NCBI GenBank assembly: GCA_039028155.1
Contig: JBCCIS010000046.1
Coordinates: forward strand, 1 to 41,157
DNA length: 41,157 nt
Source: Pseudomonadota bacterium
Lineage (GTDB): Bacteria > Pseudomonadota > Alphaproteobacteria > SP197
Direction of reading: 5' to 3'
The notes under the pieces are model-generated. The model was not told where the DNA came from, ran no database searches, and saw only the letters and a program-made list of their open reading frames with translations. A program made the translations under genes and the position numbers. Below, one piece after another: positions 21,488-41,157 of this stretch (its first letter is position 1; the number at the start of each line of letters is the position of its first letter).

Positions 21488-23164
21488 ATGAGTTCCAGAT
21501 CCTGTTTCATGGGCCTTAACCTTGGGCATGATCGCGCAATTTCGTTCGTAAGCGATGGCCCGCTTTCGTTTCACACCGCTATTGAACGGCTCGACCGCCG
21601 AAAACACTCCGAGTCGCCCGACTACCCGGTCGCCGAGATTAACCGGGTGCTCGACCACCTTGGGATCGCTATCGACGATATCGCGGGTGTCTGTCTCTCT
21701 TATCTCGGGAGCAACCCCGAGCGGATCAGCGAGACGATGGCGTGGGAGTTTCGTCAGGAGTTTCCAGGCTTCCGCGGCGACTTCTCCACGCTGGATCATC
21801 ATAACGCGCACGCGATCGGTGCGCAGGTCTGCAGCGGATTTAATGAAACACTCGTCCTGGTCGCGGACGGCGCCGGTGATGAACGCCTGTGGGGCACGCA
21901 GGCTGAGTCCCTGATTTCCGTCAACGCGAAAACTTGCCAATTGATAGATGAGCGCGTGCAGTCGATGCCGCGAAGTCAGCTCAATCGGCCAAAGTTCTAC
22001 GATCCCGCATTCTTCCGCGCTGATGACGCAACGCGTCAAATCAGCCTGGGCCTGAAGTACGAGCAGATCACGTATTTGTGCGGATTCGGCCCGGGGCAAG
22101 CGGGCCAGACGATGGCTCTGGCGGCCTATGGGGAACCTCTATTCGATTACCAGCGCTACCTGCCGTCCGATCTTTCGTTCTCGCTGACCTATCCGGACTT
22201 CCTGCGGGAGTTCACGGACCTGGCGTCCTCGCGAAAGCAGACCCTTAGAGAGTTCGCCAAGAGTAATCGTGCTGATATCGCGGCGACCTATCAGGCCTAT
22301 CTCGAAGAAGCGCTCGTTCGCATCAGCGAGGAGGTCGTGCGCCGCCACAAGCCTGACGCGCTGTGTTTCGCCGGCGGCATATTCTTGAACTGCCTCTCGA
22401 ACAGGAAAATTACCAACGCCCTATCGCAAACGAACCTCTACTTCCTGCCGGCATGTGGTGATGACGGACAGTCAATCGGCACGGCGGCCTATGCGTACTG
22501 GCGACAGGCAGAACGTTTTCCCGAACCGAACACCGCCTTCCCCTACCTCGGCCGCGGCTTCTCGTCGGAGGAATGCGAGAAAGCTGTCGCCGAAGCCGGT
22601 CTTGCCGGCGAGAGACTGTTCGGATCATCCCGCGCGGAGCGTCTTGCCCAACTGCTCGCCGAAGGCAAGATCGTGGGTGTACTCCAGGGCCGATCGGAAG
22701 CCGGCCCCAGGGCACTCGGCCACCGCAGCATACTGGCGGACCCGCGCTCCCCCACGACAAAGCCTCGCATCGACGCTGGCATCAAACGACGCGCCGAGTT
22801 TCGGCCCTACGCGCCGATGATGCTCCGCGAATGTGTCGGCGACATCACCGACTTCGCCTCTGCTTCGCCCCACATGCTGATCACCGCCGATGTTCGGGAA
22901 CAGCATCGGTTGAAGTTGCCCGCCATCACGCATATCGACAACAGCACACGCGCACAGACGGTGACGGAAGAGATCGATCCGTTTCTCTTCGCGCTTCTCA
23001 CGGCGTTCGAACACAAGACCGGCTATGGCGTCCTTCTCAACACGTCCTTCAACGATGAGTCGGAGCCCATCGTCGACAGCCCGGAAGATGCCATCCGCAC
23101 GTTCCTGCGCACCGAGCTCGATGCGTTGCTTCTCGAAGAGGTTCTCGTGACCAAATCCGGCTGA
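21488..23164 (+). CDS. NodU/CmcH-type O-carbamoyltransferase
   Basis: A 558-residue enzyme of the NodU/CmcH/TobZ family, which moves a carbamoyl group from carbamoyl phosphate, via carbamoyl-adenylate, to a hydroxyl of a sugar, Nod factor or antibiotic. The Kae1-like domain has GLNLGHDRAISF (usual GxxxxHDxS), LDHHNAHAIGA (metal histidines), GQAGQTMALAAYGEP and CFAGGIFLNCLSNRK. The C-terminal domain has LQGRSEAGPRALGHRSIL and LLNTSFNDESEPIVDSPEDA. All blocks are present, so it is probably functional. It is the only gene between the two guaA repeats and runs opposite to its neighbours. No glycosyltransferase or biosynthetic partner is near, so the acceptor is unknown. Confidence 0.9.
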   Translation: MSSRSCFMGLNLGHDRAISFVSDGPLSFHTAIERLDRRKHSESPDYPVAEINRVLDHLGIAIDDIAGVCLSYLGSNPERISETMAWEFRQEFPGFRGDFSTLDHHNAHAIGAQVCSGFNETLVLVADGAGDERLWGTQAESLISVNAKTCQLIDERVQSMPRSQLNRPKFYDPAFFRADDATRQISLGLKYEQITYLCGFGPGQAGQTMALAAYGEPLFDYQRYLPSDLSFSLTYPDFLREFTDLASSRKQTLREFAKSNRADIAATYQAYLEEALVRISEEVVRRHKPDALCFAGGIFLNCLSNRKITNALSQTNLYFLPACGDDGQSIGTAAYAYWRQAERFPEPNTAFPYLGRGFSSEECEKAVAEAGLAGERLFGSSRAERLAQLLAEGKIVGVLQGRSEAGPRALGHRSILADPRSPTTKPRIDAGIKRRAEFRPYAPMMLRECVGDITDFASASPHMLITADVREQHRLKLPAITHIDNSTRAQTVTEEIDPFLFALLTAFEHKTGYGVLLNTSFNDESEPIVDSPEDAIRTFLRTELDALLLEEVLVTKSG

Positions 23165-31031: not shown

Positions 31032-33071
31032 CTAGAATGCGATCTGCAAGCCGGCCTGGCCGGCGATGGTGCGCCCGCTGTTGCTTTCCAACGTCGCCTC
31101 GACGCTGCCAAACAGCGACACGCCGTCATCGATCAATGCCGACAGCTCGACGCCCGCCAGCGCCGCGCCGACGCTGTCCTCGCCACCCGCATCGAAGTTG
31201 ATGGTCTGACCCAACAACACAGCGTCCACATTGCTGTTGTCCAGGCGCGTGCGCCCCTCCACGCCCGCATAGGGCGCGAAGTAGACGCTATCCGCGTATT
31301 GCGGGATACGCACCGGCACCGTCACCTGGAACCGACCGGTCAGCAGATGGATGAACCGGTCGTCGACCGTCATGCCGCTTGATGAGCCCGTCTCCGTATA
31401 GCTGTCCAGATGCGTGCCCGCGTAGCCCAGTTGCACACTGGGGATGACCTCCTGCCCGTTGACCGACACCGTGCGCGCCACAGAAAGCTCCGGCGCGATG
31501 AAGTAGCCATCATAATCCGCCGATGCCGTCTCCATGCCACCGGGCGCGGCGTTGTTGGCGATGTTGCGGCTGAGTTCGTAGCGGCTCCAGCCACCGGTCA
31601 CGACCAGATCGACCGCCCATAGTCCGGAGGCATAACCGCCATAAACACCGATGAAGGCACTACCGATATCCTCGTCATGAGAGTCGAACTCCACGTCCAG
31701 CTCACCATAGGAGGCGCCCAGGAACAGGCCCGCGCGCGTATCGGCGCCGACCGGCGTGTCGACACCGGCGACGACGCCGCCCAGGTAGTGGTTCGCGCCA
31801 ACGGTCGGCGACGTACTGTTCTGATCGCGCGCCAGGCCGAACACCTCGACCCACGCCTCGGTGGCGGAACCCGCGCCAATCGACGAGGCGAACCCCAATC
31901 CATCGTCTTCGTCAAGCGACGCCACCGCCTGACCCGTCGATCCGCCTAGCCGTTCGCTGCGCAGGCGCGAGAAGACGCTGCCCGAGACCGAATTCGTCAG
32001 ATCGAAGACGATGTCGTCGGCCATGGCCAGCGCCGTCGGATCGACCACCGCCACCTGCAGTCCGTTCACCGCGAACGGCGCGCCGTTGGCGACAACGAAC
32101 GGTGCGTTGCCGGTGAACGTGTTGTTGATGTTCAGGCCGTTCGCCACATCCAACGTGTTGCCGGGGGCGAAATTCAGCGGCCCCTGAATGTTAGAACCCT
32201 GCAGCAAGCGCAGCGTGTTGCCGCCGCCCGTAAACCGCACGGCGGCCGAGGCCGTGCCGCTCGCAACGAGTTGACCGCTGTTGTTGACAACGTTGTTCGT
32301 CGCACCCTGAATGCTGTCCGCGGTTAGACCCGAGGCTGAGATCGTTCCGGTGTTCGTGATCGTGCTGCCAGTGGTAACGATCACGCCGTGAGCGGCGCCA
32401 CCCTGCGTGACGATGTTGCCGCTGTTGTTAACCGTGGTGTTGGCGCCGGTGGAGATACCGAAAGCGTTAGCGCCCAGCGTCGAGATCGTCCCGCTGTTGC
32501 CGATCGTGTTGCCGGTACCAAAGGCGAAAACACCAATCGCGCCCAGGCCGGTCGTTGAGATCGTCCCGGAGTTGCCAATGGTGTTGTTGTTGACTGCGTT
32601 GATGCCGTGCGCGGTCGCGCCCTGCGTTGTGATAGCGCCACTGTTGAAAATCGTGTTGTTGTTGGCGACCGTGACGCCATGAGCGCTGCCGCCCAGTGTC
32701 GAGATCGCGCCGGCATTGCCGATCGTGTTCCCGTTGCCGCCTAAGATGCCGAAGGCCGCACCCAACCCAGAGGTCGAGATCGTGCCCGTGTTGTTGACGA
32801 CGTTGTTGTTGCCCATAAAGATGCCAACATCCACCGCCCCAAGCGTTGTAATCTGACCTTCGTTGGTGATCGTGTTGCTGTTGCCGGCAAAGACACCGAC
32901 GCCGCCGGTCAAAATCCGGCCGCCGGGCTTCACGATGCCTGTCTGACCGTTGATCAGGATCTGGGTGGTAAACACCGTCTGGCCGTTGTCGACGATAAAG
33001 TCGGCACGAGCACCCGCCACGCCAACGACCATGGCAGCGGCTACCGCCGCGCCCTTCGCCCAACACCGCAT
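31032..33071 (-). CDS. Autotransporter with 24-residue passenger repeats
   Basis: A 679-residue type V secreted outer-membrane protein. The signal peptide is MRCWAKGAAVAAAMVVGVAGARA. The passenger (about 59-276) has nine repeats of 24-25 residues with the pattern G(I/V)xxxxNNTIxNSGTISTxGxxA(H/F), expected to form a beta-helix. A linker follows, then from about 404 a C-terminal autotransporter barrel (TEAWVEVFGLARDQ... YGGYASGLWAVDLVVTGGWSRYELSRNI) ending in the BAM-recognised AGLQIAF. ATG 33071 has GGGGG upstream; TTG codons at 33092 and 33089 are alternatives. No protease motif was seen. A likely role is adhesion or surface structure. Confidence 0.87.
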   Translation of the reverse strand: MRCWAKGAAVAAAMVVGVAGARADFIVDNGQTVFTTQILINGQTGIVKPGGRILTGGVGVFAGNSNTITNEGQITTLGAVDVGIFMGNNNVVNNTGTISTSGLGAAFGILGGNGNTIGNAGAISTLGGSAHGVTVANNNTIFNSGAITTQGATAHGINAVNNNTIGNSGTISTTGLGAIGVFAFGTGNTIGNSGTISTLGANAFGISTGANTTVNNSGNIVTQGGAAHGVIVTTGSTITNTGTISASGLTADSIQGATNNVVNNSGQLVASGTASAAVRFTGGGNTLRLLQGSNIQGPLNFAPGNTLDVANGLNINNTFTGNAPFVVANGAPFAVNGLQVAVVDPTALAMADDIVFDLTNSVSGSVFSRLRSERLGGSTGQAVASLDEDDGLGFASSIGAGSATEAWVEVFGLARDQNSTSPTVGANHYLGGVVAGVDTPVGADTRAGLFLGASYGELDVEFDSHDEDIGSAFIGVYGGYASGLWAVDLVVTGGWSRYELSRNIANNAAPGGMETASADYDGYFIAPELSVARTVSVNGQEVIPSVQLGYAGTHLDSYTETGSSSGMTVDDRFIHLLTGRFQVTVPVRIPQYADSVYFAPYAGVEGRTRLDNSNVDAVLLGQTINFDAGGEDSVGAALAGVELSALIDDGVSLFGSVEATLESNSGRTIAGQAGLQIAF
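32244..32897 (-). repeat. Tandem 72-75 bp coding repeats of the autotransporter passenger
   Basis: Nine units with spacing 24, 25, 24, 24, 24, 25, 24, 24 and 24 residues. They share asparagine ladders (NNNTI, GNTIGN) and NSGTIST. The DNA copies have diverged, so the array is kept at the protein level and is not a recent expansion. Confidence 0.85.
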
Positions 33072-33103
33072 CACAAACCCCCAATGCAACAACTCTACCT
33101 TGC

Positions 33104-36845: not shown

Positions 36846-36876
36846 TGCATTCGAGTGGGCACTCCTCCATATTATG
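36846..36876 (+). promoter_or_regulatory. Candidate promoter of the monooxygenase gene
   Basis: TATTAT (36871-36876) is a near-consensus -10 box, with TTGCAT (36846-36851) as -35 at a longish 19-base spacing. The dyad at 36882-36899 begins 5 bases after the -10 box, over the expected transcription start. Confidence 0.45.
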
Positions 36877-36881
36877 CAAAT

Positions 36882-36899
36882 GAACGATCGTTCGTTCAA
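36882..36899. promoter_or_regulatory. TetR-type operator
   Basis: TGAACGA-TCGT-TCGTTCA, an 18-bp dyad with 7-base arms, containing the perfect 12-bp palindrome GAACGATCGTTC. The form (GAACGxxCGTTC) is typical of TetR-family operators. It lies between the divergent tetR and monooxygenase starts. Confidence 0.75.
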
Positions 36900-36938
36900 G
36901 GTCTGATTGGGTCACTGGCCCGTCATGCGGAGGATTTC

Positions 36939-38462
36939 ATGGCACACTTCAACATCGTCATTGTCGGCGCCGGGCTGTCCGGGATCGGCTGCGCCCGTTA
37001 CCTGCAGCAGAAGTGTCCGAACAAATCACTCGTCCTGCTGGAGGGCCGCGAAAGGATCGGCGGCACGTGGGACCTCTTCCGCTACCCAGGCATTCGCTCC
37101 GACAGCGACATGCATACCCTTGGCTATGCCTTCAAACCGTGGGAAGGCGGCAAGGCGCTCGCCGACGGACCATCGATCCTGGACTACATCAAGGAAACGG
37201 CGGAAGAAAACCACATTACCGACCACATTCGTTTCAACCGCCAGGTGACGTCGGCCCGATGGTCAACAAGCGAGTCCCGCTGGACGCTCGATGTCGAGCA
37301 CGGCAATGGTGGCGGGCGCGACCGCTATACCTGCGACATGCTGCTGCTGTGCGGCGGTTACTACCGTTACGACAGGGGACACGCGCCGGGGTTCAAAGAC
37401 GCCGATACGTTCGAGGGCCAAGTCGTCCACCCGCAGTTCTGGCCCGAAGACCTCGACTACGCGGGCAAGAGTATCATTGTTATCGGAAGCGGCGCGACGG
37501 CGATAACTCTTGTGCCTGCGCTGGCGAAGGACGCGGCCAGCGTAACCATGGTCCAGCGCTCGCCGAGCTATGTCTATTCAATGCCCAGCGTCGATCACGA
37601 CGCCGAGCGGCTCAGGAAGTACCTGCCCTCAACGCTTGCCTATGCGATCACGCGCTGGCGCAACATTCGTTTGAACCAGTACTACTACTATCAATCGCGC
37701 GAGGAAGTCGAAAAGACCAAACAGGATCTGATCTATCTGGTGCGCGAAGCGCTGGGACCGGACTACGACGTCGAGAAACACTTCACGCCACGCTACAACC
37801 CTTGGGATCAGCGTCTCTGCCTGATCCCCGACGACGATCTCTATGACGCCATCAACTCGGGCAAGGCCGTCGTGGTGACGGACGAGATCGACCGGTTCAC
37901 CGCCGGCGGCCTGAAGCTCAAGTCGGGTGAGGAACTGAAGGCCGACATCATCATTTCCGCCACGGGCCTGGAACTCAACGTCGCCAACGGGATCGATTTC
38001 AGTGTTGACGAAAAGCCGGTCAATTTCGCCGAGACGTTCTCCTACAAGGGTATGATGTTCTCTGACGTACCGAACCTGATCCAGGCAACCGGCTACTTCA
38101 ACGCGTCGTGGACACTGAAGATCGACCTGACGGCCGAGTACATCTGCCGTCTGCTGAAGCTCATGGACAAGCGCGGCATGCGCCAGGCAACGCCCAGGCT
38201 GCGCGACGTCGAAGACGCGGACCTTCAGGCCATGACCTGGAACGACGAGTTCACCGCCGGCTACATCAAACGCGCCCAGCACCTTTTCCCAAAGCAGGGC
38301 GACCGCGCGCCGTGGCAACAAACCGGCGACTTCTACGCCGACAAGAAAATGATACGCGACGCGCCGCTCGAAGACGGTGCGCTTCGGCTCAGCAATCCCG
38401 TGGACACGTCGAAGGAACGGGTCGCGACCACGCCCGCGACGTCGGAACGTCCGGCCGCCTGA
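36939..38462 (+). CDS. Baeyer-Villiger-type flavin monooxygenase
   Basis: A 507-residue FAD/NADPH enzyme. The FAD Rossmann motif is IVGAGLSGIG (8-17), followed by RIGGTWDLFRYPGIRSD. The Baeyer-Villiger fingerprint FxGxxxHxxxWP is FEGQVVHPQFWP at 158-169 (tryptophan, where N-oxidising FMOs usually differ). The NADPH Rossmann motif is VIGSGATAIT (181-190), and DIIISATG closes the core. It is expected to insert oxygen into a ketone or oxidise a heteroatom. ATG 36939 has GGAGGA five bases upstream. The TetR dyad in front implies induction by substrate. Confidence 0.88.
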   Translation: MAHFNIVIVGAGLSGIGCARYLQQKCPNKSLVLLEGRERIGGTWDLFRYPGIRSDSDMHTLGYAFKPWEGGKALADGPSILDYIKETAEENHITDHIRFNRQVTSARWSTSESRWTLDVEHGNGGGRDRYTCDMLLLCGGYYRYDRGHAPGFKDADTFEGQVVHPQFWPEDLDYAGKSIIVIGSGATAITLVPALAKDAASVTMVQRSPSYVYSMPSVDHDAERLRKYLPSTLAYAITRWRNIRLNQYYYYQSREEVEKTKQDLIYLVREALGPDYDVEKHFTPRYNPWDQRLCLIPDDDLYDAINSGKAVVVTDEIDRFTAGGLKLKSGEELKADIIISATGLELNVANGIDFSVDEKPVNFAETFSYKGMMFSDVPNLIQATGYFNASWTLKIDLTAEYICRLLKLMDKRGMRQATPRLRDVEDADLQAMTWNDEFTAGYIKRAQHLFPKQGDRAPWQQTGDFYADKKMIRDAPLEDGALRLSNPVDTSKERVATTPATSERPAA

Positions 38463-38505: not shown

Positions 38506-39366
38506 ATGTCGACGATCAATCGTGAGCTCAAGATCGGGTTCGGCGCGATTTTCAGGACGTTTCGCCGGCGCATCGCCAAGACCTGGGGCATCGTTCTCGT
38601 CGAGAACGTGCTGCTCGCCCTCATTCCGCTTCTCATAGGTTTTTCGATCGACGGCCCGCTTGCCGGCCGCCTTGACGAACTGGCCATGCTGGGCGGCGTG
38701 CTCGCTCTTCTCGGCGTCATAGGGGTCGCCCGGCGCATCTATGACACGCGCGTCTACGGCACCATTCGTGTGCATCTCGGGTTCTCCCTGCACCACCGAA
38801 ACACCGGTTTGCGCGTCTCTGCCCGCAACGCGCGCCTCGGCATGTCGCGCGAGCTTGTCGATTTCCTCGAAAAGGATGTGCCCGAACTCATCACCGCGAT
38901 CGTTCAGGTGATCATCAGCCTCACGGTGCTAGCCGTCTTCGACCCGCGTCTCGGTCTGGCATCAGCCATCGTTCTCGTTGCGATGATCGGCTTCTACGCC
39001 TGTTTTCACGGATCCTTCTACCGCTTCGCCGCCAACATGAATGAGCGCCATGAGCGACAAGTCGACGTCCTGGATGGCGGCTCCAAACTCGGCGTGTTCC
39101 GCCACTTGCGGGGCCTGCGCGGGATCGAGGTCTCGGTATCCGACACCGAGGCCTATCTTTACGGCGGCATGTTTCTGATGCAGATCGCCTTCGTCATCTT
39201 CAATCTTTACGTCGGCGCGCAGTTGCCCGCGGTGACCGCGGGCATGATCTTCTCAATCGCAACGTATTCGTGGGAGTATGTCGACGCGGCTCTCAGGCTG
39301 CCCATGGCGCTGCAGAGTTGGTCGCGCCTGAGCGAAATTACCAAACGCATCAACCAACCGACTTGA
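38506..39366 (+). CDS. ABC transporter six-helix membrane domain protein (no ATPase domain)
   Basis: A 286-residue membrane protein that looks like the transmembrane half of an ABC exporter (ABC_membrane_3 type) without the nucleotide-binding half. Helices are visible near 27-50, 60-75, 130-170 and 225-265 (TWGIVLVENVLLALIPLLIGF, ELITAIVQVIISLTVLAVF, LYGGMFLMQIAFVIFNLYVG). The cytoplasmic stretch SRELVDFLEKDVPE is like exporter coupling regions. The reading frame ends cleanly at 39366 and no ATPase follows, so this is not a simple truncation. It lies 43 bases after the monooxygenase and may share its transcript. An ATPase would have to come from elsewhere. Confidence 0.72.
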   Translation: MSTINRELKIGFGAIFRTFRRRIAKTWGIVLVENVLLALIPLLIGFSIDGPLAGRLDELAMLGGVLALLGVIGVARRIYDTRVYGTIRVHLGFSLHHRNTGLRVSARNARLGMSRELVDFLEKDVPELITAIVQVIISLTVLAVFDPRLGLASAIVLVAMIGFYACFHGSFYRFAANMNERHERQVDVLDGGSKLGVFRHLRGLRGIEVSVSDTEAYLYGGMFLMQIAFVIFNLYVGAQLPAVTAGMIFSIATYSWEYVDAALRLPMALQSWSRLSEITKRINQPT

Positions 39367-39434: not shown

Positions 39435-40133
39435 ATGCTGCTGACACCGACCGAGATGGAACGGCTGACCATCTTCACCGCCGCCGAACTGGCGCGCCGC
39501 CGCCGTGCGCGCGGCCAACGGCTGAACCATCCCGAAGCGGTCGCCTTCATCGCCGACGAGCTGCTGGAGGCCGCGCGCGACGGCCAGACGCTGGCCGAGG
39601 TCATGACGTTGGGCGCGACACTTCTGACCACCGACGACGTGCTGCCGGGCGTTGCCGAGCTGATGTCGCTGCTGACCCTCGAGGGACAGTTTCCCGACGG
39701 GCCGAAGATGATTTCGGTCCACAACCCGGTGCGCCCGGGCAAGGAGGCGCAGGTCGATACGGTGCGGCCCGGCGAGGTGTTGACTGCGGACGGTGATATC
39801 GAGCTGAATGCCGGGCGCGAGCGCATCACACTGACCGTGCTCAACACAGGCGACCGACCCGTGCAGGTCGCCAGCCACTATCACTTCTTCGAAGCCAACA
39901 AGGCGCTTGAGTTCGACCGCGCCGCAGCCTTCGGCATGCGCCTCGACGTGCTGGCGGGCGCGGTCGCGCGGTTCGAACCTGGCGAGTCCAAGGACGTCAC
40001 CCTGGTCGCCATCGGCGGTACCGGCGAGATCACCGGCCTCAACAACCTGACCGAAGGGCAAGTCTCTGATCCCGCCGTCAAGCAGGTGGCGCTCGCGCGC
40101 GCCAAGGCGCGCGACTACAAGGGAACGGAATAA
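39435..40133 (+). CDS. ureAB: Urease gamma-beta fusion subunit
   Basis: A 232-residue fusion. Residues 1-100 are the gamma subunit ([37 protein letters not shown], ending [14 protein letters not shown]). From about 110 comes the beta subunit ([63 protein letters not shown]). Fused gamma-beta subunits are known in Helicobacter and several other bacteria. After the beta core the usual glycine-rich end is replaced by [32 protein letters not shown], which I do not recognise. The stop shares one base with ureC (TAATG). Confidence 0.9.
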
Positions 40134-41157
40134 TGGCGACCATTTCTCGCGACGCCTATGCCGCGGCGTTCGGCCCGACCACCGGCGATCGCGTCAGACT
40201 GGGCGACACCAGCCTGCTCGCGCGCGTCGAAAAGGACCACACGGTCTATGGCGAGGAGCTGTTGACCGGCCTGGGTAAGAGCTTGCGCGACGGGCTTGGT
40301 GTCAATGCCAGCGCGACGGCGGCGGACGGCGCGCTTGATGTCGTCGTTCAGAACGCGCTGATCATCGATCCGGTGCTCGGCATCATCAAGGGCGATATCG
40401 GCATCATCGACGGGCGCATCGTCGGCATCGGCAAGGCGGGTAACCCGGCGGTCATGGCCGGCGTCGACCCGAACCTGATCGTCGGACCGTCGACCAAACA
40501 CTTCATGGCCGAAGGCATGATCGTCACCCCCGGCGCCATTGACGTGCATGCCCACTACGGCCAGCCGGCGGAGGTTTGGCACGCGTTGTCGTCGGGCATG
40601 ACGACCATGATCGGCGGCGGCTTCCCCGGCTGCTGGTCGGTCGATTCCGGCGGGCTGTGGGCCAACACGCGCATGCTGAAGGCGATCGAACCCTTCCCCA
40701 TGAACTTCGGCCTGTTCAGCCGCGGCAGCGCGCACAAACCCGAAGGCATTGCCGAGCAGATCCGCTCCGGCGTCATCGGCGTCAAGATCCACGAAGACAT
40801 TGGCGCCATGCCGGCGACCATCGACTGCTGTCTCTCCGTCGCTGACGATCTGGACTTCCAGGTCCAGCTCCACACCGACACCATGAACGAGGCCGGCTTC
40901 TTTGAGCGCACCATGGAGGCGATCGCCGGGCGCACCATCCACATGTACCACACCGAGGGCGCGGGCGGCGGTCACGCGCCGGACATCATCCGCTGCAACG
41001 GAGAGGTCAACTGCCTGCCGTCGTCGACCAACCCGACCAACCCCTTCACGTTGAACGCGCTCGACGAGCATCTCGACATGATGATGCTGTGCCACAGCCT
41101 GTCGCCGAACGTGCCCGAAGACGTCGCGTTCGCCGACAGCCGGCTCAGGCCGCAGAC
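40133..41157 (+). CDS. ureC: Urease alpha-subunit-like amidohydrolase (5' part)
   Basis: The first 341 residues of a UreC-like nickel amidohydrolase; the rest lies beyond the window. The metal ligands and catalytic residues are kept: HAH (K. aerogenes H134/H136), the carbamylated lysine and H219/D221 in VKIHED, HTDT (H246), [15 protein letters not shown] (H272), and the flap C-H pair (MLCHSLS, C319/H320). Yet the region from [11 protein letters not shown] to the flap is divergent. The usual GGGTGPAxGTxATTCTPGPW loop is replaced by [16 protein letters not shown], four residues shorter. HEDWG has become HEDIG, and CHHLD is CHSLS. It may be an atypical urease or an enzyme for a related amide. 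Accessory genes ureDEFG are not in view. Confidence 0.85.

Follow-up and report, generated by a model that had tools for sequence, protein, structure and literature searches.

A urease-like alpha subunit with a conserved di-nickel core and a rewritten pocket: a candidate hydrolase of substituted ureas or amides

Urease is usually taught as having essentially one physiological substrate. The stretch of DNA analysed here, a contig of 41,157 nucleotides (the window), ends within a gene for a urease-like alpha subunit, UreC, that keeps the catalytic residues of urease but belongs to a lineage, clade A, with a shortened lid and altered pocket residues. From its sequence relatives and genome context, clade A UreC may be an active, UreD-matured hydrolase of urease fold that acts on an N-substituted urea or a related amide, a reading to which we give a chance just under even. 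A drifted but ordinary urease is a serious rival, because the NCBI urease model accepts the full-length sibling of the protein and the short lid of Haloarcula urease is compatible with urea.

The locus and its catalytic core

The source assembly comprises 5.3 Mb in 118 contigs, with 97.41% completeness and a contamination value of 4.19; the window is contig C46 of this genome (G000). The features at its right-hand end are as follows, those within ureC being placed by alignment.

36855..38462, + strand: flavin-binding monooxygenase-like protein, named by profile matches; same strand as ureAB-ureC
38506..39366, + strand: ABC transporter protein with the transmembrane part only (PF13748); same strand, 68 nt ahead of ureAB
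39435..40133, + strand: ureAB, fused urease gamma/beta subunit of 232 aa; NCBIfam NF009671 at 335.5 bits (cut-off 243), Pfam Urease_gamma and Urease_beta
40133..41157, + strand: ureC, encoding a urease-like alpha subunit of clade A; 341 codons from the start, with the frame still open where the window ends; the remainder lies on contig C16 of the same genome (- strand, 88697-89488)
40547..40555, + strand: H139-x-H141, Ni ligands
40613..40678, + strand: rewritten lid (residues 161-182), shortened from 26 to 22 residues
40784..40804, + strand: KIHEDIG, from K218 (the carbamylated-lysine position) to G224, with Ile at the Trp225 position
40871..40873, + strand: H247, Ni ligand
40949..40951, + strand: H273, Ni ligand
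41090..41098, + strand: flap C320-H321-S322, with Cys-His kept and the next His replaced by Ser

The last base of ureAB overlaps the start of ureC. Among the best 79 loci of 558 stretches, the sibling locus alone shares the PF13748 gene near ureC, and the same is true of the flavin-monooxygenase-like gene. A scan of the window for promoters and terminators gave one match resembling a promoter and one resembling a terminator; the corresponding means for shuffled sequence were 0.7 and 3.1. A tandem repeat scan gave two rows, one of them inside ureC (40377-40436; imperfect, period 21, 2.7 copies, 77% matches). Elsewhere in the window, inspection by eye found a 686-aa protein (31032-33092, - strand) that contains repeated units rich in asparagine and glycine and whose C-terminal half is autotransporter-like, and a 558-aa protein resembling carbamoyltransferases of the NodU/CmcH type (21488-23164, + strand).

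Where is the rest of ureC? Besides the window gene, a genome search finds UreC matches at two other sites, one at the end of contig C16 and one on contig C49, which carries a full-length paralog. The C16 end opens with a frame containing a 36-residue stretch that is 100% identical to window UreC residues 306-341. The two contig ends overlap by 112 nt (window 41046-41157) with three mismatches, all within four bases, that leave Leu-Arg unchanged, so the break is probably due to strain variation in the assembly. The joined UreC is 569 aa long. A sibling genome (G001) carries, on MAG contig JANQGO010000468.1, an intact ureC of 93% identity with the same two genes upstream. Because gene order and lid are conserved there, we reject the idea that the odd lid arose from a chimera or a frameshift.

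Alignment to Sporosarcina pasteurii urease places the catalytic residues of window UreC at H139, H141, K218, H220, E221, D222, H247, H273, C320, H321, and R337. The earlier note had held that the nickel ligands, the carbamylated lysine, and the flap Cys-His are in place, and this is correct, with the last Ni ligand, D361, supplied from beyond the window by the C16 remainder. The alignment likewise upholds the reported changes from HEDWG to HEDIG and from CHHLD to CHSLS. A further change, Ala366 to Gly, also lies in the C16 part. The Ala170 position, counted on the S. pasteurii row, is inside the rewritten lid segment and falls in a gap of the alignment. Of the urease numbers used from here on, H137, E223, W225, H275, H324, and Q365 are counted from residues numbered in the available portion of PMC7433671.

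By database rules, window UreC is a urease subunit. The fragment scores 157.6 bits with Pfam Urease_alpha (PF00449; cut-off 23), 104.6 with Amidohydro_1 (PF01979; cut-off 25), and 488 with NF009686 (cut-off 354). With the urease equivalog model TIGR01792, the 341-aa fragment scores 452.6, below the cut-off of 680, and the full-length sibling, scanned in place of the joined window protein, is accepted at 737.5. Thus, the profile cut-offs for a urease alpha subunit are reached, that of TIGR01792 by the sibling. The Ni ligands, the carbamylated-lysine position, His222, His323, Asp224, Arg339, and Asp363 are all present, a fused UreAB lies directly upstream, and a gene for the nickel-insertion accessory protein UreD scores over its cut-off on contig C32 of the same genome. 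Window UreC does not have the canonical lid and flap set of a 26-residue lid, HEDWG, CHH, and Ala366.

An AlphaFold model of the sibling UreC, built from 30 sequences (mean pLDDT 78.2, pTM 0.87), superposes on Klebsiella aerogenes chain 1fwg_C with a VIA-align Z of 46.1 and an rmsd of 2.2 Å over 549 residues, and Foldseek agrees. The pLDDT is below 50 at the lid (165-172) and across most of the flap (304-333). The structure prediction that the earlier note had proposed therefore supports the urease fold of the full-length sibling, and leaves the geometry of the pocket undecided.

Lineages, pocket states, and selection

The phylogeny proposed in the earlier note sets window UreC outside the canonical ureases. 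In total, 106 UreC sequences were aligned and 103 grouped, leaving out those of Haloarcula marismortui, Streptomyces NBC_00841, and Aminobacter SR38; the maximum-likelihood tree holds 68 of the aligned rows, 38 rows of clade C (the fused-UreAB type) having been thinned out. Clade A (13 rows) has support of 100/100. Together with clades B, D, and E and the single sequence L076, it forms a derived clade of 29 rows, also supported at 100/100, which lies near clade C and apart from the 14 canonical rows in their own 100/100 group. For the order of the derived clade and clade C, that is, clade C as one clade versus clade C as paraphyletic, the AU test gives p 0.403 (22 rows against 46). With these groupings, fixed pocket changes, and a changed gene neighbourhood, the suggestion of a distinct urease lineage is borne out. 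The fusion of ureAB does not by itself mark that lineage: in Deinococcus, UreAB is fused and the lid is canonical.

The loci compared are the best 79 distinct ones among 558 stretches confirmed in a scan of the genome collection, a limit that leaves aside more distant relatives. Within these 79, all 25 derived loci come from assemblies titled as metagenomes, and many clade C loci come from named strains. Of 385 sampled Alphaproteobacteria genomes, 11 have a match at E <= 1e-205. All matches of at least 66% identity fall in the window's own family, one of them being the clade B paralog of genome G007. Two further lid types occur in this sample, one in L179 and the other in L182 and L183. Aberrant lids are present in L147, L151, L179, L182, and L183 (Streptomyces NBC_00841, Aminobacter SR38 plasmids, and Alphaproteobacteria), which suggests a wider diversity of pockets. 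The contig of L076 carries two UreC genes within about 10 kb, the derived one and another that is clade-C-like and accompanied by UreD-like frames (by eye).

Which residues of the pocket vary? In all 103 grouped sequences, positions H137, H139, K220, H222, E223, D224, H249, H275, G280, H323, R339, D363, and M367 are unchanged. Around this core, the lid has 26 residues in 13 of the 14 canonical sequences (25 in the other), 23 in clade C (60/60), and 22 in A, B, D, E, and L076; the claim that the window's lid is four residues shorter thus stands. Position 225 is Trp in canonical UreC (14/14) and clade C (60/60), and becomes Leu or Ile in A (11 and 2 of 13), Tyr in B (6/6) and D (6/6), and Phe in E (3/3). 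Position 366 is Ala in the 14 canonical sequences and Gly in the other 89. Position 322, the flap Cys, is kept in A and D, replaced by Val or Ile in B (5 and 1) and by Ser or Ala in E (2 and 1), and also lost in L076. Position 324 is Thr or Ser in A (11 and 2), Leu in D (6/6), Leu or Ser in E (2 and 1), and His in B. The pocket changes are therefore lineage traits, and the sister clades, as aligned, have kept the catalytic residues and altered the pocket in different ways.

Window UreC and its sibling differ by a dN of 0.041 and a dS of 0.442 (dN/dS about 0.09), and paralog B differs from its own sibling by 0.021 and 0.385 (about 0.05); by these ratios, clade-A UreC is under purifying selection. 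The odd pocket is not a matter of chance, because the short lid, HED[L/I], and CH[T/S] recur in 13/13 clade-A sequences and dN is this far below dS.

Does the genome provide for maturation? UreC is found in 14 of the 16 genomes of the window's family: by motif, 13 of them have clade A, and the other, G004, has the clade C type. UreD is found in exactly the same 14, with one copy per genome even where there are two or three UreC genes. The co-occurrence has a Fisher p of 0.008, although the genomes are related and so not independent. On contig C32, UreG- and UreF-like frames adjoin ureD (by eye).

The second divergent UreC of the window's genome, on contig C49 (L005, 11673-13379, - strand), belongs to clade B and has the flap Cys replaced by Val, HEDYG, and the lid GGGHGILFGVDSGGDW; it lies near genes for a peptide-type binding protein and a trimethylamine-methyltransferase-like protein. 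By motif, clade B occurs in seven genomes, and G010 and G011 have second UreC matches of 61-62%. A canonical UreC is present in one family genome of 16, G007, which thus holds A, B, and canonical types; C and D coexist in G209.

Gene neighbourhoods and candidate reactions

Gene neighbourhoods were surveyed with phmmer (E <= 1e-10) at the best 79 of the 558 stretches, up to 10 kb on each side, with some contigs shorter; the loci are related, and their counts are not independent events. Within this set, the 54 clade C loci are linked to UreD (54), UreG (54), UreF (51), UrtC (35), UrtB (33), and an aliphatic amidase (25), and none of these six was found near the 11 clade A loci. Nor was a UrtB or UrtC homologue found by the same search near any of the 25 derived loci. 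At the window's own ureC, no ureD or ureG was seen upstream in the window or downstream on C16.

The clade A loci have other neighbours: an MFS transporter (9 of 11), enoyl-CoA hydratase (9), CoA ligase (8), acyl-CoA dehydrogenase (5), class-III aminotransferase (5), and a PuuE-like deacetylase (4). Among the same best 79 loci, the corresponding counts in clade C are 0 or 1 of 54, and 0/54 for the MFS transporter, CoA ligase, and enoyl-CoA hydratase. A separate count from gene calls finds the MFS cluster at 10 of 12 clade-A loci of the family, the sibling and L045 being those where it is absent. Pfam supports the names of these neighbour proteins, and none of the NCBIfam matches listed for the acyl-CoA proteins reaches its cut-off. 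The acyl-CoA gene set is not beside ureC in the window's locus or in that of the sibling, which does have the class-III aminotransferase.

The other derived clades differ again. Among the best 79 loci, clade B is accompanied by a peptide-type binding protein (3/4) and a trimethylamine-methyltransferase-like protein (2/4), and clade D by UreD (4/6) and a PuuE-like protein (3/6). At one clade E locus, two creatininases score above the curated cut-off (352.9 and 361.3 against 235), and another has a dihydropyrimidinase above its cut-off (586.9 against 393.25) with hydantoinase A/B genes; the three E sequences include a nearly identical pair, and these neighbourhoods therefore count as two cases. 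Creatininase, dihydropyrimidinase, and hydantoinase are enzyme types of pathways that include ureido compounds (for the creatinine route, see PMC6742649, in excerpt), and the clade E neighbours thereby lend help to a ureido substrate. No gene of the creatininase or hydantoinase type lies beside the window's own ureC.

What reaction would such an enzyme catalyse? The product of the locus, UreC with the fused UreAB, would be a catalytically competent di-nickel amidohydrolase of urease fold, matured by a single, unlinked set of urease chaperones. Because it shares its di-nickel ligands, carbamylated-lysine position, and acid-base residues with urease, the enzyme is expected to act on a C(=O)-NH2 group by urease chemistry. 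As in urease, the carbonyl would sit on Ni(1) and one NH2 on Ni(2), with the bridging hydroxide as the nucleophile and the flap His assisting. In the urease structure described in the available part of PMC7433671, the carbonyls of Ala170, Ala366, and Gly280 accept hydrogen bonds from the urea NH2 groups, and the distal urea nitrogen is directed towards the entrance channel. The shorter lid, Ala366Gly, Trp225Leu/Ile, and His324Ser/Thr may make room at that end of the pocket, so that an N-substituted urea (a ureido or N-carbamoyl compound, R-NH-CO-NH2) or a related carboxamide could be accepted with its substituent towards the channel. A ureido substrate would yield R-NH2, CO2, and NH3; any specific substrate is a guess. 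Guanidine and creatinase-like chemistries were also considered and were left for want of evidence.

The earlier note's idea of a different or larger substrate is accordingly favoured and unproven. The varied pocket rewrites of the sister clades, the two or three UreC types per genome, and the lack of Urt-like linkage speak for it, and the TIGR01792 score of the sibling and the reported activity of Haloarcula hispanica urease, which has a 22-residue lid (excerpt of PMC7305310), speak against it. These last two points, together with the kept catalytic residues and the co-occurring UreD, are also the case for an ordinary urease, in which urea is the substrate and the lid and flap changes are drift tolerated in a deep lineage. 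We regard this as a real possibility, if a somewhat doubtful one. Because urea is contacted at 170 and 366 by backbone carbonyls, at least in the portion of the structural account available, the side-chain changes may matter little. Moreover, the genome search found no canonical UreC in this 97.4% complete assembly, so a clade A or B protein could be the urease of the genome. Creatine-type catabolism could supply plain urea, and the genome has one creatininase over its cut-off (259.1 against 235) and 11 hydantoinase-B matches. However, several lineage-specific pocket states around an invariant core would not be expected if the ligand were always urea. Clade A is also retained beside clade B, and in G007 beside a canonical UreC too, and among the best 79 loci the derived clades lack Urt homologues (0/25) and clade A is linked to acyl-CoA genes.

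Alternatively, clade A UreC might be a nickel-dependent carboxamide hydrolase that feeds the linked acyl-CoA dehydrogenase, ligase, and hydratase. The recurrence of the MFS, CoA ligase, and enoyl-CoA hydratase genes at 8-9 of 11 clade-A loci, and of an aliphatic amidase at 25 of 54 clade C loci, is consistent with this proposal, but the window's locus and its sibling do without these genes next to ureC, and gene linkage does not tell which bond is cut; we consider it unlikely. A non-catalytic or decaying homologue, for which the loss of the flap Cys in B, E, and L076 might argue, is very improbable given a catalytic set invariant in 103/103 sequences, the low dN/dS values, and the retention of UreD.

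If clade A does act on substituted ureas or amides, a gene annotated as 'urease' in an uncultured bacterium would not always be a sign of urea use. Beyond clade A, a broader and tentative suggestion, with a chance somewhat below even, is that proteins of urease fold in uncultured Alpha- and Gammaproteobacteria have diversified into nickel hydrolases that retain the di-nickel chemistry and act on differing N-substituted ureas or amides, with A, B, D, and E as separate substrate lineages. All four clades would then be annotated as urease by current models. Clades that keep the di-nickel machinery and a maturation gene while varying the substrate-facing residues would form a natural series for studying how urease specificity is set.

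Comparison with known systems

Searches of the open-access literature on second, divergent, or fused ureases, which misses most subscription journals, yielded no description that we recognised as clade A and no activity test of the fused short-lid type. Canonical UreC (EC 3.5.1.5), as in Klebsiella aerogenes and Sporosarcina pasteurii, shares with clade A the fold, the Ni ligands, the catalytic Lys, His, Arg, and Asp residues, and the presence of UreD in the genome. Clade A differs in its lid (22 residues against 26), in the replacements Trp225 to Ile/Leu, His324 to Ser/Thr, Gln365 to Glu, and Ala366 to Gly, and in having no linked ureD, ureG, ureF, or urt genes. More distantly, dihydroorotase, dihydropyrimidinase/hydantoinase, and allantoinase belong to the same barrel superfamily (Z about 23), with 17-20% identity in the rows listed.

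Haloarcula urease shares the 22-residue lid with clade A and differs in the sequence of that lid; its Trp225, Cys322, His324, and Ala366 are all canonical. Given the activity reported in the excerpted source, a short lid by itself does not show that a urease homologue acts on another substrate.

Also among the close known systems are the fused-UreAB ureases of clade C, which are about 58-64% identical to the window protein and share with it the fused UreAB, a short lid (23 residues), and Gly at position 366. In contrast to clade A, they keep HEDWG and CHH; the set of 23-residue lid, HEDWG, and CHH is found in 60/60 clade C and 0/13 clade A sequences, that of the window included. Likewise, among the best 79 of 558 stretches, ureD and ureG are both linked to ureC at 54/54 clade C and 0/11 clade A loci, and clade C often has urt and aliphatic amidase genes as well. 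The clade C ureases of plasmids L007, L009, and L011 have an ANTAR regulator and a Urt-like transporter as neighbours, and those of L007 and L011 also have an aliphatic amidase. In the available part of PMC3098086, a Bradyrhizobium japonicum Urt-like transporter encoded beside amidase genes is argued to carry an amide and not urea; this argument bears on clade C, and the transporters of the three plasmids may carry amides rather than urea.

The gene order ureEF(AB)CGD was described in 2008, from gene order and a tree, for two clusters of Bradyrhizobium BTAi1 and for PSYR2197 of Pseudomonas syringae B728a (PMC2492869, in the portion available). BTAi1 is aligned here as a member of clade C (L105); the P. 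syringae protein lies outside the alignment. The fused ureEF(AB)CGD relatives are thus already known, and on its sequence clade A is a variant of the urease type with a putative substrate.
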